Source of the DNA: Arthrobacter sp. zg-Y820
Lineage (GTDB): Bacteria; Actinomycetota; Actinomycetes; Actinomycetales; Micrococcaceae
NCBI RefSeq assembly: GCF_030142155.1
Contig: NZ_CP126247.1
Location: 1,116,001 to 1,180,000, forward strand
DNA: 64,000 nucleotides
Direction: 5' to 3'
Under the pieces are notes generated by a model, which had not been told where the DNA came from, did no database searches, and was given only the letters and a program-made list of their open reading frames with translations. Of this stretch, positions 40,438-63,039 are shown in pieces. The translations under genes were made by a program, and so were the position numbers. Every line of letters begins with the position of its first letter. Within the stretch, counting starts at the first letter, position 1.

Positions 40438-40518
40438 AGGTCATGAGTGCCAGCAGATAGCCCCGGCTTGCTGGCCGGCAACCCTCCAACCGCGGTGGGG
40501 TGCCCCGGGTGAAGACCT
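40438..40518 (+). promoter_or_regulatory. SAM-IV riboswitch
   Basis: The leader of metY carries the SAM-IV aptamer: GGTCATGAGTGCCAGC, then AGCCCCGGCTTGCTGGCC, CGGCAACCCTCC, the CGCGG hairpin and GTGCCCCGGGTGAAGACC. P1 is AGGTC (40438-40442) with GACCT (40514-40518). A further hairpin GTACGTC-AGAG-GACGTAC follows at 40523-40540. SAM binding is expected to lower metY-metX expression. SAM-IV is an actinobacterial class, found before methionine genes. Confidence 0.9.
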
Positions 40519-40621
40519 GGCTGTACGTCAGAGGACGTACGGCAAGCGCGGGTCACACGTGGCTGCCGGCTACCTTCGGGGCCGGAAGTCTCGGTGCGGC
40601 CCCTGGTATAGGGAGCACGCC

Positions 40622-41946: not shown

Positions 41947-43140
41947 GTGGCAGTGCCTTCACCCCGGAACACCGTCCTTTCCGGTTCCACCGCGTCCGAT
42001 TCGGCTGCGCCGTTGAGCGTTCCGACGGCGCCGCAGCACCCCACCCCGGCCCCGGACGGGGTGCTGCTCCACGCCAAGATCGGTAGCCTGGAGCTGGAAA
42101 CCGGCGGGCGCCTGCCCCAGGTTTCCCTCGCCTATGAGACGTGGGGGCAGCTGAACGACGACGCCTCCAACGCCGTCCTGATCTGCCACGCCCTCACCGG
42201 CAGCACCCACGTGGCCCGGGGGGATTCCGAGGAGGACGGCTGGTGGGACACCCTGGTGGGTCCCGGAAAAACCGTCGACACCAACCGGTTTTACGTCGTC
42301 TCGATCAACATGCTCGGCGGCTGTTACGGATCCACCGGGCCGTCCTCGGCTGATCCGCAGGGCCTGCCCTGGGGCTCGCGCTTTCCGTTTGTCACGGTCC
42401 GCGACTCGGTCCGCGCCGAGGCGCGGCTGGCGGACCTGCTCGGCATCCGGAGCTGGCACACGGTGCTGGGCGGCTCGCTCGGCGGGGCGCGGGCCCTGGA
42501 GTGGGCCGTCACCGAACCCGCCCGGGTGCGGCGCTGCGCCGTGATCGCGTGCACGGCGGCCAGCTCCGCGGAACAGATTGCCTTTGGCCAGGCGCAGCTC
42601 GAAGCCATCCGGCTGGATCCGCATTTCAACGGCGGTGATTACTACAACGGCAGGACGCCGGCGGCCGGGCTGGGCCTGGCCCGGCGCATCGCGCACATCA
42701 CCTACCGCTCGGAGCCGGAACTGGAATACCGTTTCGGGCATGAACCGCAGCCGCAGGAGGATCCGTTGGGATCTGCCCTGTCGGCGGGCCGGGGACGCTA
42801 TGCCGTGGAGAGCTACCTGGACCATCAGGCCCGGAAGCTCGTGGACCGGTTCGACGCCAACAGCTACCTGGTGCTGACCGAAGCACTGATGAGCCACGAC
42901 GTCGCCCGCGGCCGCGGACCGCTGGAGCAGGCCCTGGCCGGCGTCACCGCCGAGTTCTTCATTGCCGCCGTGGACTCGGACCGGCTCTACTTTCCGCAGC
43001 AATCCGAGGTTCTGGCCGCGGCCTTGCCCGGAGACACAACGGTGCACATGATTTCCGCTCCCATCGGCCACGACGGGTTCCTGACCGACGTCGAGCAGCT
43101 TGGAGTGCCGCTGCGCCAGCGGTTCTTCGGGCCGGCCTGA
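41947..43140 (+). CDS. metX: Homoserine O-acetyltransferase
   Basis: 397 aa alpha/beta hydrolase. Acetylates homoserine using acetyl-CoA, making the substrate of MetY. Triad S177 (GGSLGGARALEW), D345 (DSDRLY) and H375 (IGHDGF). A Pro/Ala/Ser-rich N-terminus of about 35 residues precedes the fold. GTG start 8 bp after metY. Confidence 0.95.
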   Translation: MAVPSPRNTVLSGSTASDSAAPLSVPTAPQHPTPAPDGVLLHAKIGSLELETGGRLPQVSLAYETWGQLNDDASNAVLICHALTGSTHVARGDSEEDGWWDTLVGPGKTVDTNRFYVVSINMLGGCYGSTGPSSADPQGLPWGSRFPFVTVRDSVRAEARLADLLGIRSWHTVLGGSLGGARALEWAVTEPARVRRCAVIACTAASSAEQIAFGQAQLEAIRLDPHFNGGDYYNGRTPAAGLGLARRIAHITYRSEPELEYRFGHEPQPQEDPLGSALSAGRGRYAVESYLDHQARKLVDRFDANSYLVLTEALMSHDVARGRGPLEQALAGVTAEFFIAAVDSDRLYFPQQSEVLAAALPGDTTVHMISAPIGHDGFLTDVEQLGVPLRQRFFGPA

Positions 43141-43213
43141 TCCCGCGGGGCGCACTGCTCTTGCCAAGCCGGGCCGGCCATGGCAGAACAGGGTGTCATG
43201 GAAGAGCAACGTC

Positions 43214-43750
43214 ATGGGTGATTCGATCCGGGTGTCGGCCCAGGCCCAGTGTGCCCCGGCGGACCTCTGGCACGCGCTGGTGGACAACCGGGCCGTGTGG
43301 TGGCCGGAAATGGACTTCACCGCCAGCCCCGGAGCTCCGCTCACCGAGCGTCCGGCGGAGCACCCGCACGGCGCCGGGTACGACGGCGGTGGTGGCGGCG
43401 GCGATGACGACGACGGCGGCGGCTTCGTTGGTGGCGGCGTTGCCGGCGTCGGGGGCGGCGTCCCCGGGGCCGAGCAGCGGGCGACGGGAACTGTGCTGGC
43501 CGTGGCCCGGGATCGGCTTCTGTCCTTCCGCTGGACCAAACCCGGCTGGAACGCCCACACCGTCGTGAGCTTCCTGCTCGATGCCGTACCCGGGCCGGAC
43601 GCGGAAACGGACTACACCGATGTCGTGATCACCGAAAGCGGCCTCGGCATCCTGACAGCCGGCGAGGAGGTGGCCCGGATCCACACGGAGGACTGGGCCG
43701 ACCATCTCGCCGCCCTCATCCGGCTGGCCGAAGAAGCAGTAGCGGGCTGA
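43214..43750 (+). CDS. SRPBCC/AHSA1-like protein
   Basis: 178 aa. Helix-grip fold pattern: IRVSAQAQCAPADLWHALVDNRAVWWPEMDF, then FRWTKPGWNAHTVVSFLLD and HTEDWADHLAALIRLAEEA. A stretch of Gly, Asp and Val (about 55-85) encoded by GGT/GGC repeats interrupts the domain between the first and second strands. It could bind a small ligand; no function can be assigned. RBS GGAAGAG before ATG 43214. The upstream part of the open frame overlaps metX and is not used. Confidence 0.78.
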   Translation: MGDSIRVSAQAQCAPADLWHALVDNRAVWWPEMDFTASPGAPLTERPAEHPHGAGYDGGGGGGDDDDGGGFVGGGVAGVGGGVPGAEQRATGTVLAVARDRLLSFRWTKPGWNAHTVVSFLLDAVPGPDAETDYTDVVITESGLGILTAGEEVARIHTEDWADHLAALIRLAEEAVAG

Positions 43751-43843
43751 ACTGGCAAGGACTTCTACCTATTTTCGATGCAAACATTTTGACGGAGAAA
43801 TTTTGCAGATTTCAGGGCACCTCACCTCGCGCTTGAGACAGTG

Positions 43844-43856
43844 TAAGATACCGATA
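43844..43856 (+). promoter_or_regulatory. -10 box placing the 5' end at the tRNA-like gene
   Basis: TAAGAT (43844-43849), then 7 bases to G43857, the first base of the acceptor stem. A -35 box is not clear (TTGAGA at 43833 is too near). Confidence 0.4.
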
Positions 43857-43953
43857 GCGCCAGAGGTCAATTGGTAAGACGCCCGCCTTCAAACGGCATT
43901 TTTGAAGAGCCTCTTTAGAGCGGGAGAAGTGCGTTCAACTCGCACCTGGCGCA
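43857..43953 (+). tRNA. tRNA-like gene, UCA anticodon, 26-nt insertion in the anticodon loop
   Basis: Acceptor GCGCCAG/CTGGCGC (7 bp), D arm GTC-AATTGGTAA-GAC, T arm GTGCG-TTCAACT-CGCAC and variable loop AGAA all fit a class I tRNA; A discriminator 43953, no CCA encoded. The anticodon stem CCCGC (43882-43886) / GCGGG (43920-43924) encloses 33 nt. Removing 26 of them (43893-43918 or one base later) leaves the loop CTTCAAA: U33, anticodon UCA (43889-43891), A37. The insertion holds TTTGAAG (43901-43907), the exact complement of CTTCAAA (43887-43893), so in the unspliced form the anticodon is paired. Position 8 is A instead of U. UCA reads UGA (opal suppressor or Sec type). A Leu(CAA) reading allows only 3 bp of anticodon stem. 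Not a typical Sec tRNA: no long variable arm. Confidence 0.72.
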
Positions 43954-43954
43954 C

Positions 43955-44932
43955 ATGTCTATGGGGTTAGTTCTGAGGAGCAGTCGCGGACGCAAGTTGT
44001 TTAAGATGATGGTTGGTCAAAATAACCACTTTCTGATTACGATCTGTGTAGGGCTCGACGCCGTTGAGCGGGGCGTAGCCACGTTGCCCGGCAAATTTCG
44101 GACGTCGTGGAGCCCAAAGGATAAGCAGGCATCTAGTCGTCGGAGTCGAGATTTTGCGATAAAGGCGACGCTTATCTGGCTTTGTGACGCTGTTGATGCT
44201 TACTTACGAACTGGGCTGGAGGAGCCTTCTCTGTTCCCGCAGTCTTTGCGTGACAAGATCGAGTCAGCACGAAGTAACGACAAGACTGGCGTCAGTGACA
44301 GGTTGCAGATAGTTTCGCAACACGCAAATCTATCTGAGAGCGACGCGTACTATCTCACTCAGGTAGCCCTTGTCTGGCGAAACCGTGTGACGCACTACAA
44401 GCCAAGAAATCGCGTTGCATCCCTCCACGTGAAAGCGTTGATGAAAGACGCGGAGTCAATACGTGAAGGGTATCAGGGCCTTGATGTTGTTCGCCTGATC
44501 GAGCATGCAGAAAAGGCAGAACCCGAGGCGCCGACCTTCAAGGAGATAACCGCTCTTATTCGTGCTGCGCACCGTCTTATTCAAGATCTTGATGAGAAAC
44601 TCATAGATGGGATGGATATGGACGCCTATCTCCAGCAACTTATTGTGGGCTATGTTAGGGCCGAAGATGTTGATGACCAGGTCAAACGATCTGGAACGCG
44701 CATAACCCGTGTTCAGAATATCTGGGGTAAGCAAGACTCCACCGCGTCTGATGGTAGGCAGTCTTCTCGTCGTGCTTCTGCCCTAATTCAGGTGGGCCTG
44801 AACGGCGGTATGGCCCCCGTGCGGGACGGAGATTCGAATGGCACGTCCGTCCAGTTATTGGATGAACTCGTCATTCTCAGCCCTGCCGAAGTCTTCAAAC
44901 GATTTGTTGAAATAGATGAGGTAGGGGAGTAG
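43955..44932 (+). CDS. HEPN-type putative ribonuclease, foreign-looking
   Basis: 325 aa, mostly helical. Residues 142-147 read R-N-R-V-T-H, the RNxxxH (Rx4-6H) catalytic motif of HEPN RNases, preceded by the helix TQVALVW. This motif is used by toxins and defence proteins that cut tRNA or mRNA (RnlA, PrrC, Cas13 class). The rest is not recognised. Composition is near 50% GC, with stretches near 43%, and uses codons such as TTA and ATA that neighbours avoid, so it is probably acquired. ATG 43955 lies one base after the tRNA-like gene; no ribosome site precedes it, so trimming the tRNA 3' end would leave a leaderless message. Other in-frame starts (43961, 44006) are possible. No relatives were searched. 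Confidence 0.75.
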   Translation: MSMGLVLRSSRGRKLFKMMVGQNNHFLITICVGLDAVERGVATLPGKFRTSWSPKDKQASSRRSRDFAIKATLIWLCDAVDAYLRTGLEEPSLFPQSLRDKIESARSNDKTGVSDRLQIVSQHANLSESDAYYLTQVALVWRNRVTHYKPRNRVASLHVKALMKDAESIREGYQGLDVVRLIEHAEKAEPEAPTFKEITALIRAAHRLIQDLDEKLIDGMDMDAYLQQLIVGYVRAEDVDDQVKRSGTRITRVQNIWGKQDSTASDGRQSSRRASALIQVGLNGGMAPVRDGDSNGTSVQLLDELVILSPAEVFKRFVEIDEVGE

Positions 44933-44934
44933 TT

Positions 44935-44980
44935 AGCCTTCCTCTCAACCTTTGAGTCACTCTTCCGACTTTTGAAGGCT
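44935..44980. repeat. Short inverted repeat after the HEPN-type gene
   Basis: AGCCTTC (44935-44941) and GAAGGCT (44974-44980), three bases after the stop; possibly the end of the transcript. Confidence 0.4.
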
Positions 44981-45096
44981 CAGCCCAACAGCGAGTGCCG
45001 AACTGGCTGGCTGCCGCCTGCTTCGTCGGCTGCAAGTGGATCGGTCCAGTATTAGCTGACGACGCCCTCGTCGGTTTTGATCCTGGCCGAGGCCGG

Positions 45097-46032
45097 TCAG
45101 TCCGCCGAACCCGGCGGCATGCCCTGCCCGCCGAACATCGGTCCGGCGTCGGGACGCTTGGCGGCAATTCCGTCGCCGGAGGACCGGTGGCGGACCCGGC
45201 GCACCACCCACGGCATGAAGTACTCGCGGGCCCAAGAAAGATCCTCGGTGCGGGCCGTCCGCCAGTTCTTGGCCTGCAGCGGTTTCGGTTCCGAGGGCTC
45301 CAGGGTGTGCGCGACGGCGAGCGTGTCCAGCACCATCATCGCAATGGTGTGATGGCCCAGCGGTGAAAAGTGCAGCCGGTCCGGTGCCCACATTTCCCGG
45401 TTGCTCAGCTCACGCAGCGCCCACATGTCCGCGATCACGACGTCGCGGCGGGCGGCGATGGTCCGGAGGTTTTCGTTGTAGACGGCCACCCGTGCCCGGA
45501 CGCTGCCGAGCACCGGGGTGGTGCCCAGGTCCGGGCCGGTGAAGAGGACCACCGTGGCCCCGCTGCCGGCCAGCCGGGCGATTGCCGCGTCCATCTTTTC
45601 GGCGAGCTTGTCCGGATCGCCGCCGGGGCGGATCACGTCGTTGCCGCCGGCGCAGATGGTCACCAGGTCCGGCCGCAGGTCCAGCGCCGGTTGCAGCTGT
45701 TCTTCAATGATCTTGTTCAGCAGCCGTCCGCGGATGGCAAGGTTGGCGTAGGCGAAGTTGTCCCGGTCGCGCGCCAGCTCCTCGGCCACCCGGTCAGCCC
45801 AGCCGCGATGTCCGCCGGGGCTGTCCGGATTCGGGTCGCCAATCCCTTCGGTGAAGGAATCTCCGAGGGCAACAAACCGGTGCCACGGGTGCGGCGAATC
45901 AGCTTCGGCTACGCTCAGCGGATCAGTTCCGGGATCGTTCACCCGGGCGCTTGGCGCTGCTGCAATGGCGGCCGCGGCGGCTGCCGTCGACGAGGGAAGG
46001 AAGCTGTCCTGAGGATGCGATGGAGAAGTCAC
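45097..46032 (-). CDS. SGNH/GDSL hydrolase
   Basis: 311 aa. GDS block FVALGDSFTEGIGDP with the nucleophile Ser, G in YANLAIRGR, N in ICAGGNDVIRPGG, and D/H in APDRLHFSPLGH: the four SGNH blocks are present. The N-terminus (first about 45 residues, Ala-rich) is not a clear signal peptide. The substrate is an ester of unknown type. Start GTG 46032 is fixed by a -10 box. Confidence 0.9.
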   Translation of the reverse strand: MTSPSHPQDSFLPSSTAAAAAAIAAAPSARVNDPGTDPLSVAEADSPHPWHRFVALGDSFTEGIGDPNPDSPGGHRGWADRVAEELARDRDNFAYANLAIRGRLLNKIIEEQLQPALDLRPDLVTICAGGNDVIRPGGDPDKLAEKMDAAIARLAGSGATVVLFTGPDLGTTPVLGSVRARVAVYNENLRTIAARRDVVIADMWALRELSNREMWAPDRLHFSPLGHHTIAMMVLDTLAVAHTLEPSEPKPLQAKNWRTARTEDLSWAREYFMPWVVRRVRHRSSGDGIAAKRPDAGPMFGGQGMPPGSAD

Positions 46033-47101: not shown

Positions 47102-48073
47102 GTGCCAAATGCTGTGCGAATCAATCCCCTGATCGGTCTTCCCCTCGCTGTCCTGGCCGGGACGGCCATTCCTGCCCAGGCCCGGGTGAACGGTGCCCTG
47201 CGCGAGGAACTCAACGACGGGCTGGCCGCCGCCCTGGTCAGCTTCACCGTGGGGTTGGTGGTCATGATCATCATTTCCGCGGTGCTGCCGCGCGGACGCG
47301 CCGGCGCCGCCCAGCTGCTCCCGGCCCTGCGGGAGCGGCGCTTTCCGCGCTACTACGTGCTGGCCGGTGCCATCGGCGGCTACTTTGTGCTCTCCCAGAC
47401 CCTGACCGTCGCCGTCCTGGGGGTTGCCGTCTTCACGGTGGCCGCCGTCGCCGGCCAGACCATGACCGGGCTGGTGGTGGACCGCCTGGGCATCGGCCCG
47501 GCCGGAAAGAAGGCGCTGACGGTGATGCGCGTGGTCGGCGCGGTGCTGACCATAGCCGCCGTCGCCTGGGCGGTGAGCCCCAAACTCAGCGGAGCCTCGG
47601 CGGCCTCGGAGCTGCTGCTCCCGGTGCTGCTGCCGCTGACGGCCGGCATGCTGATGAGCTTCCAGCAGGCGATGAACGGCACCACCGGCATGCACTACGG
47701 CACGCCCATCACCGCCACCCTGGTCAACTTCATCGCCGGTTCCGCGGTCCTGCTGCTGTTCTGGCTGGCCAAGGTGGCAGTGTCCGGTTTCGGTGAGCCG
47801 CTGCCGGGGGAGTGGTACCTGTATCTGGGCGGACCGCTGGGCTGCGTGTTCATCGGGCTGAGTGCCCTGCTGGTGCGCAGCCTGGGTGTGCTGCTGACCA
47901 GTCTGGGCATGATCGGCGGCCAGCTGGTCGGGTCACTCCTGCTCGATATTTTCCTGCCCGCGCCCGGCAGCGTGGTGGTGGCGGCCACCGTCCTGGGCAC
48001 CCTGCTGACACTGGCCGCAATCGTGATCGCCACCCTGCCCTGGAACATGCCGGGCGTCCTGCGCCGCCGCTGA
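47102..48073 (+). CDS. DMT family transporter (DUF606/YdcZ type), copy 1
   Basis: 323 aa with about ten membrane helices in two similar halves: LAGTAIPAQARVNGALREEL / SFQQAMNGTTGMHYGTPITATLVNF. This is a fused double form of the DUF606 (YdcZ) family. Solute unknown. Clear tandem copy of the next gene. Confidence 0.88.
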   Translation: MPNAVRINPLIGLPLAVLAGTAIPAQARVNGALREELNDGLAAALVSFTVGLVVMIIISAVLPRGRAGAAQLLPALRERRFPRYYVLAGAIGGYFVLSQTLTVAVLGVAVFTVAAVAGQTMTGLVVDRLGIGPAGKKALTVMRVVGAVLTIAAVAWAVSPKLSGASAASELLLPVLLPLTAGMLMSFQQAMNGTTGMHYGTPITATLVNFIAGSAVLLLFWLAKVAVSGFGEPLPGEWYLYLGGPLGCVFIGLSALLVRSLGVLLTSLGMIGGQLVGSLLLDIFLPAPGSVVVAATVLGTLLTLAAIVIATLPWNMPGVLRRR

Positions 48074-48158: not shown

Positions 48159-49145
48159 GTGACTGCCGCAACGCTGCCCCGGATGGCCGGAGCCTCCCGT
48201 CTGCCCCTGGCCGCCGGCCTGCTGCTGGCCCTGCTGGCCGGTCTGGCCGTGCCCGTGCAGGCCCGCGCCAACGGCGCGCTCGGCGCCCGGATGAATGACA
48301 GCCTGGGGGCCGCCCTGGCCAGCATCGCCGTCGGGCTGGTCTGTATCGGGCTGGTGACCGTCCTGCTGCCCTCCGGCCGGGCCGGTGCCCGCCAGTTCCT
48401 TCCGGCCCTGCGCGAGCGCCGTTTTCCCCGCTGGTATGTCCTCGCCGGCGGCATTGGCGGCTACTTCGTCCTCACCCAGTCCCTGACGGTGGGCCTGCTG
48501 GGCGTTGCTGTCTTCACCGTCGCCACCGTGGCGGGGCAGACCCTGACCGGGCTGCTGGTGGACCGGATCGGCATGGGCCCGGCCGGGCGCAAACCGGTGA
48601 CTGCGGCGCGCGCGGCGGGCGCGGTCCTGACCATCGCCGCCGTCGCCTGGGCGCTGAGCCCGAAGCTCGACGGCGGATCGCCGGCTGACCTGCTGCTCCC
48701 GGTCCTGCTGCCCCTGACCGCAGGAATGCTGATCAGTTTCCAGCAGGCGATGAACGGCACCACCAGCGTTCAGTACGGCACTTCGCTGACCGCCACTCTG
48801 GTGAACCTGGTGGTCGGCACCGCGGTCCTCCTGATCTGCTGGCTGGTCAAGTCGGCCCTGTGGGGTTTCGGCGGTGCCCTGCCGACGGAATGGTATCTGT
48901 ACCTGGGCGGCCCGCTGGGCGTTTGCTATGTCGGGCTGGGCGCCATGCTGGTCCGCCATCTGGGGGTGCTGCTGACCGGCCTGGGCATGATCTGCGGGCA
49001 GCTGATCGGCTCGCTGCTGCTGGACGCGGTGCTGCCCGCGGCGGGATCCGGCGTCGGCGCCGCCACCATCGCCGGGACCGCCCTGACCCTGGCCGCCATG
49101 GTGCTGGCCACCCTGCCGTGGAGCCGGCGCAAAGTGCGCCGATAG
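48159..49145 (+). CDS. DMT family transporter (DUF606/YdcZ type), copy 2
   Basis: 328 aa. Residue for residue close to copy 1 (VQARANGALGARMNDSLGAALASI, RRFPRWYVLAGGIGGYFVL, SFQQAMNGTTSVQYGTSLTATLVNL). Tandem duplication with separate leaderless promoters, so the two can be expressed independently. Solute unknown. Confidence 0.88.
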   Translation: MTAATLPRMAGASRLPLAAGLLLALLAGLAVPVQARANGALGARMNDSLGAALASIAVGLVCIGLVTVLLPSGRAGARQFLPALRERRFPRWYVLAGGIGGYFVLTQSLTVGLLGVAVFTVATVAGQTLTGLLVDRIGMGPAGRKPVTAARAAGAVLTIAAVAWALSPKLDGGSPADLLLPVLLPLTAGMLISFQQAMNGTTSVQYGTSLTATLVNLVVGTAVLLICWLVKSALWGFGGALPTEWYLYLGGPLGVCYVGLGAMLVRHLGVLLTGLGMICGQLIGSLLLDAVLPAAGSGVGAATIAGTALTLAAMVLATLPWSRRKVRR

Positions 49146-62552: not shown

Positions 62553-62625
62553 TCCTCCGTAGCTCAATTGGCAGAGCATTCGACTGTTAATCGAAGGGTT
62601 ACTGGTTCAAGTCCAGTCGGAGGAG
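62553..62625 (+). tRNA. tRNA-Asn (GTT), copy 1
   Basis: 73 nt cloverleaf: acceptor TCCTCCG/CGGAGGA, D stem GCTC/GAGC, anticodon loop CTGTTAA (GTT at 62586-62588), T loop TTCAAGT. Discriminator G; no encoded CCA. Followed by a terminator. Confidence 0.96.
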
Positions 62626-62632
62626 CAAAAGA

Positions 62633-62958: not shown

Positions 62959-63031
62959 TCCTCCGTAGCTCAATTGGCAGAGCATTCGACTGTTAATCGA
63001 AGGGTTACTGGTTCAAGTCCAGTCGGAGGAG
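62959..63031 (+). tRNA. tRNA-Asn (GTT), copy 2
   Basis: Same sequence as copy 1 over the entire 73 nt, including the immediate 5' flank; acceptor 62959-62965 / 63024-63030, discriminator G63031. A duplication of the whole tRNA plus leader. Confidence 0.96.
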
Positions 63032-63039
63032 CAAACAGG

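Follow-up and report, generated by a model that had tools for sequence, protein, structure and literature searches.

Why does an RNA gene shaped like a tRNA stand directly ahead of a gene for a predicted RNase, and what might it do there? The question is raised by a locus of Arthrobacter sp. zg-Y820, which lies in the 64,000-nucleotide stretch of contig NZ_CP126247.1 analysed here (hereafter, the window). The original prediction placed the two genes one base apart in a low-GC islet, and both features are borne out: the RNA ends at 43953 and the open reading frame (ORF) starts one base further on, at 43955, while the GC content is 0.557 in the RNA and 0.518 in the ORF versus 0.675 in the window. 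The features of the locus are the following.

43733..45092, no strand assigned: inserted cargo segment; its flanks are 57-427 bp apart in five relatives of the same genus
43857-43953, + strand: tRNA-like RNA (RF00005, 50.0 bits; family model R2, 88.4 bits; covariation in 18 RNAs)
43857-43863 with 43946-43952, + strand: acceptor stem of the RNA, seven pairs
43866-43868 with 43878-43880, + strand: D stem of the RNA
43882..43924, + strand: anticodon arm, with a stem of five pairs (43882-43886 with 43920-43924) and an enlarged loop (43887-43919)
43889..43891, + strand: UCA triplet at the anticodon place, inside the conserved CUUYA motif
43895..43911, + strand: inserted hairpin (43895-43897 with 43909-43911; the window has three of the four conserved pairs)
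43929-43933 with 43941-43945, + strand: T stem, five pairs, with T loop UUCAACU
43953, + strand: discriminator A of the RNA
43955..44932, + strand: predicted HEPN-type RNase gene, 325 aa (alternative start ATG at 43961)
44378..44395, + strand: codons of R142-N-x-x-x-H147, the predicted catalytic motif with invariant R, N and H

The RNA and its gene in the window

The RNA forms a cloverleaf at the curated Rfam score, with 50.0 bits at 43857-43953 versus a gathering score of 29 for RF00005. An ARAGORN run on the window did not call it as a tRNA. Its anticodon loop begins with CUUCAAA and comprises 33 nt instead of the normal seven (26-38 nt across 18 RNAs of the family), so a seven-nucleotide loop able to decode is absent. 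No repeats of at least 14 bases, direct or inverted, were found in 43600-45200.

The original prediction also supposed one promoter shared by the two genes. This is not supported: no sigma-70-like site was found in 43600-45200, although TTGACA occurs within 60 nt upstream of the RNA in 6 of 18 copies, all of them alphaproteobacterial. A terminator-like site between the RNA and the gene is likewise absent from the window.

The Rfam gathering scan of the window returned SAM-IV and tRNA only. The SAM-IV riboswitch (40439-40554, 125.9 bits) precedes two ORFs that by eye look sulfhydrylase- and acetyltransferase-like, as in methionine synthesis. Two tRNA-Asn (GTT) genes at 62553-62626 and 62959-63032 have equal scores and matching letters in the Rfam alignment, and the tandem ORFs 47102-48073 and 48159-49145, similar in sequence by eye, are likely paralogous membrane proteins.

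Recurrence of the pair

In all 21 loci with readable upstream DNA, the homologous gene is immediately preceded by such an RNA, and the compact RNA-plus-RNase module is thus conserved at every locus read. Eighteen of these loci, the window included, defined the family; the 17 others among them come from 14 species genomes, two viral contigs and one Sinorhizobium plasmid. Three more were found after the RNA model had been built, with scores of 63.0 bits (L094), 44.3 bits (L095) and 31.0 bits (L097, with filters off only). Three of the 21, L017, L095 and L097, do not reach the scores of the best ordinary tRNAs; their acceptance relies on position and anatomy. The hosts, named as in the sequence records and assigned to phyla by us, fall in four phyla and include Actinoplanes, Mycolicibacterium, Neobacillus, several Alphaproteobacteria and Bacteroidales. 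Hence, the two-part module of the original prediction holds, and no protein without its RNA was met among the 21 loci. The converse check, for an RNA without its protein, is a weak one: model R2 finds one strong copy (63-97 bits) in each of 15 genomes, always beside the gene, and the remaining matches listed reach at most 53.7 bits, with 150 first-look candidates scored per genome and the figures taken from the matches listed.

In 18 loci the spacer from the RNA to the start codon, as chosen by us, varies between 1 and 25 nt; the leaderless layout that had been proposed from the window is therefore not general. Pairwise identities of the RNAs correlate with those of the proteins (Mantel r 0.80, p 0.0001), and the correlation is r 0.43 (p 0.0005) when the close alphaproteobacterial group is thinned to leave 13 loci. 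By these identities, RNA and protein diverge jointly.

Structure of the RNA family

A structural alignment was made of 18 RNAs (the window and 17 other loci), and the structure was drawn by hand from these sequences. In it 93.2% of cells are paired, and both-sided changes occur in 22 of 24 pairs. The covariation score is 0.723, whereas shuffling gives 0.280 on average, and no shuffle out of 500 attains any of the five structure measures. When the partner columns are slid by one to three positions the pairing falls to 29-46%, a control that favours the proposed structure because the structure was derived from the same sequences. All five helices covary, the inserted hairpin included. The anticodon stem is paired in 97.7% of cells, with covariation in 5/5 pairs; in the hairpin 4/4 pairs covary, yet only 83.3% of cells are paired.

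The loop usually runs from the stem through about 7 nt (CUUYAnn), the hairpin and another 7 nt or so back to the stem. In its 5′ part C, U, U and A are invariant in 18/18 RNAs. At the anticodon place, ten RNAs have UCA, seven have UUA and one has UAA; among the later RNAs, read by eye, L094 and L095 have UCA and L097 has UUA, one base later in the loop. In total, 20 of 21 RNAs carry UCA or UUA, which are cognate to the stop codons UGA and UAA, and the exception is L011 with UAA. CCA directly follows the discriminator in 6 of 18 RNAs. The discriminator base and the acceptor sequence differ among copies, so that a function as a single kind of charged tRNA is disfavoured.

The window had been read as holding a masked, self-paired UCA. 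This reading fails, since the CUUCAAA/UUUGAAG helix on which it would depend is not the predicted minimum-energy fold and is not the conserved structure either. In 15 of 18 RNAs the triplet has its middle base unpaired with a probability P ≥ 0.70; this base is mostly paired in L003, L008 and L011.

The predicted RNase

A protein search gave 50 homologues, and an alignment-based search gave 322, of which the best 120 were listed. R142, N143 and H147 are invariant in 129/129 proteins, as in 50/50 of the first homologue set, and the expected conservation of R and H is thereby confirmed. The HEPN rule, as worded in the available part of PMC3710099, is a conserved Rx4-6H in which the R is usually followed by N, D or H; R142-N143-x-x-x-H147 conforms to it. 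In the AlphaFold2 model (pLDDT 93.4) the fold is helical, and RNxxxH lies at the end of the helix 130-146.

The ORF of the window has no Pfam match below E 0.08, no PADLOC match and no other domain found, and comparison of the modelled fold gave no significant match. Among 28 members searched against Pfam up to E 0.5, DUF3644 (0.015), HEPN_RiboL-PSP (0.087) and HEPN_Apea (0.25) were each reached by one or two members, no better than unrelated families listed with them. In hhalign against four ApeA HEPN domains P was 0.012 and the probability 3.6%. One family member, P0052, is named Apea-like HEPN by one source. The HEPN assignment is thus weaker than the original prediction had it, since no significant profile or fold match supports it. 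HEPN membership is predicted from the motif and its place in the predicted helical fold.

In a distant clade (L097, 763-1812, minus strand) about 49 additional amino acids precede RNxxxH and H25 is absent; RNxxxH is kept in 11/11 of its proteins, and a tRNA-like RNA still precedes the gene. N-terminal extensions occur in 24 of 140 NH-motif proteins, these being metagenomic. Several of them (P0010, P0013, P0021 and P0100 among others) resemble by eye a translated 3′ half of the RNA, for example QSGRRAFESR, which hints that such an RNA precedes these genes too.

Insertion, spread and neighbours

In five relatives (L103-L107) blastn of the flanks reveals an empty site, with the flanks 57-427 bp apart versus about 1.36 kb here. 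Among 59 genomes searched, its own included, the gene is present only in its own. Similar scarcity is found around other loci, where the protein occurs in 0/296 genomes of the host order of L004, 1/392 of the host order of L013, 0/300 of the host family of L003 and 2/393 of the host family of L008, the centre genome being left out in each case and the first-look candidates of some genomes being scored in part. A query from the distant clade found 2/394 genomes in the host family of L097, both already known. The distribution, like that of mobile cargo, is patchy and sparse. The upstream ORF (43100-43750) has a Gly/Asp-rich run at 43374-43470 (GGGGGDDDDGGG), which is absent or poorly aligned in several relatives.

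No gene is shared as a neighbour by more than two of the 17 loci compared, so the unit consists of the RNA and one protein. PADLOC matched six of ten hand-picked neighbour proteins: PD-Lambda-4_A (L004), PDC-S39 (L008), PDC-S73 with an Argonaute-TIR type N-terminus (L011), NsnA/PD-T4-2_A (L013), AbiO/Nhi (L015) and Cas13-ApeA/PDC-S58 (L018). The count of PADLOC families close to the module is 47 among 101 ORFs and does not exceed that of the control, 60 among 99 ORFs; hence no enrichment is demonstrated.

Some neighbours may be recorded individually. On the Sinorhizobium americanum plasmid (L018, 1-12780) an ApeA gene and a RES-domain gene follow the module and a caspase-family gene lies upstream. 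A 286-aa gene is found downstream of the module in L004 (9038-9898) and L007 (8963-9823), 90% identical between both and with a weak DUF5677 match in L004. In a Prevotella MAG (L013, 7034-7675) a separate HEPN_RiboL-PSP gene is located just upstream of the module.

Comparison with known systems

The nearest described system is AbiF of Clostridioides difficile. According to the available part of PMC12373285, the ncRNA RCd22 lies upstream of the gene under one promoter, binds and neutralises a toxin with a HEPN motif, and most transcripts end before the gene. The present module similarly has a structured ncRNA directly before a single gene for an RNxxxH protein, and shares with AbiF/RCd22, here as a proposal, an RNA antitoxin and abortive infection. 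However, the abiF motif (RF03085) has no match in the window, and the present RNA forms an entire cloverleaf of tRNA type; Abi_2 (PF07751) is not among the 19 Pfam families reached with 28 members at E up to 0.5; and, unlike in AbiF, where that account has most transcripts stopping before the gene, the window is devoid of a terminator-like site between RNA and gene. Since both the RNA and the protein fall outside AbiF and its ncRNA by the tests run, we regard the module as a new pair of a HEPN-type RNase with a structured RNA partner. A literature search for a module of such an RNA with a HEPN-type protein gave no match.

The layout is also that of type III toxin-antitoxin systems such as ToxIN, with the RNA gene directly before an RNase-like gene in 21/21 loci. 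Type III antitoxin RNAs are built of tandem repeats and fold into a pseudoknot; the RNA of the module is tRNA-like instead, occurs as a single strong copy per genome in the matches listed for 15 genomes, and lacks tandem repeats, with no direct repeats of at least 14 bases in 43600-45200. ToxN is not known to have a HEPN-like motif, whereas the toxin candidate of the module has one.

With ApeA (HEPN_Apea, PF18739) the protein shares RNxxxH and a preceding S..R, which align in register. Nevertheless, the low hhalign probability given above and the unmatched N-terminal domain of ApeA set them apart, and no tRNA-like partner of ApeA is known.

The RNA resembles tRNA (RF00005) in its cloverleaf, T arm and seven-pair acceptor, and differs from it in the anticodon loop of 26-38 nt with the inserted hairpin. 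Among the non-canonical tRNAs covered in the available part of PMC7609411, none is described with such an enlarged, hairpin-bearing loop. Like PrrC and RloC (PMC3710099, in part), the protein carries RNxxxH, and a tRNA anticodon loop is its possible target; the same holds for Cas13a, which the available part of PMC11042736 presents as a HEPN RNase cutting U-rich anticodon loops. Unlike PrrC, RloC and Cas13a as these sources portray them, it has 325 aa and no other domain found, and its partner RNA has the shape of a tRNA; no CRISPR array was noticed.

Proposed mechanism and its alternatives

We suggest that the RNA is most likely an antitoxin, because of its analogy with RCd22 of AbiF as the available account describes it, and our best reading is an AbiF-like layout with different parts. 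In full, a tRNA-mimicking antitoxin RNA, directly before the gene in 21/21 loci, would likely bind the predicted HEPN RNase, so that the enzyme stays inactive until the RNA is removed by phage infection; we give this complete proposal about an even chance of being correct. Sequence-level support comes from the joint occurrence of RNA and gene at every locus read, the covarying cloverleaf and hairpin, CUUYA, the invariant RNxxxH, the joint divergence and the empty site. Three results count against the proposal: no profile or fold match to HEPN is significant, PADLOC families around the module do not exceed the control, and the window has no terminator-like site ahead of the gene by which the RNA might outnumber the protein.

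In the resting cell the RNA and the gene would be on one transcript, from which the RNA would be trimmed like a tRNA. The HEPN protein, likely a dimer, may recognise the tRNA body and the U-rich loop. The tRNA shape of the RNA suggests, by analogy, that the RNase recognises tRNAs, and the U-rich loop resembles the U-rich anticodons that Cas13a is described as cutting (PMC11042736, in part). The inserted hairpin would make the RNA a poor substrate and thus leave the active site blocked.

With the loss of the RNA, through phage transcription shut-off or tRNA damage, the RNase would cut cellular tRNAs, probably in their U-rich anticodon loops, and translation would stop. The stop-cognate triplet lies outside what the antitoxin model explains. 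We tentatively, and with considerable doubt, consider an extended form that would accommodate it, in which the module is an alarm for tRNA integrity: the nuclease would be locked on a tRNA look-alike that is matured like a real tRNA, phage depletion or cutting of tRNAs would destroy the look-alike first and free the nuclease, and the look-alike would be kept from normal decoding by its UCA or UUA.

Other roles of the RNA have to be weighed against the antitoxin. It might be a bait or activator that the protein holds as a tripwire, with the RNase switched on once a phage activity for the cutting, modification or repair of tRNAs acts upon the RNA. The intact tRNA-like body, which covariation shows to be preserved across four phyla, and the CCA after the discriminator in 6/18 RNAs, fit an RNA intended to be treated as a tRNA, and phages act on tRNAs in response to the HEPN anticodon nucleases PrrC and RloC in the account of PMC3710099, as far as its available part goes; but AbiF, the nearest described system, uses its RNA as an inhibitor according to the corresponding part of PMC12373285, and we regard a bait as unlikely. 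Quite improbable, in our estimate, is a cis-acting leader whose folding and tRNA-type processing would only set the amount of protein. The RNA is indeed always in cis and directly upstream, with a spacer of 1-25 nt in 18 loci and, in the window, a start codon one base past its end; however, the spacer length is not conserved, and the enlarged loop, the invariant bases and the covarying hairpin exceed the needs of a leader.

The hairpin might also be a removable insert, excised by the HEPN protein together with a host or phage ligase to give a stop-codon suppressor tRNA with the loop CU-UCA-AA or CU-UUA-AA. The stop-cognate triplet in 17/18 RNAs, and by eye in 3/3 later ones (in L097 one base later), would suit such a product, as would an insert near 37/38, where the tRNA introns of archaea and eukaryotes usually lie. 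L011 has UAA instead, and no single charging enzyme is evident, since discriminator and acceptor vary; we hold this explanation to be very improbable. The chance that a tRNA pseudogene merely lies beside an unrelated gene is negligible: the window by itself does look like a degraded tRNA gene, uncalled by ARAGORN, but the recurrence in 21/21 loci, the covariation and the joint divergence refute it.

We thus retain the antitoxin as our preferred reading. The module is about 1.1 kb long, occurs in four phyla and is transferable to laboratory strains, which makes the idea directly testable. If the tRNA-integrity alarm is true, no immune RNA with the build of a tRNA would have come before this one. 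If the antitoxin reading is true, a complete tRNA body would serve as the regulator of a toxic RNase, and a new RNA family would come with a protein family that has no Pfam name. This would also give, next to AbiF, a second pair of a structured RNA with a HEPN-type RNase, which bears on the possible origin of RNA-guided HEPN enzymes, and bacteria could by such means monitor their own tRNA pool under phage attack.
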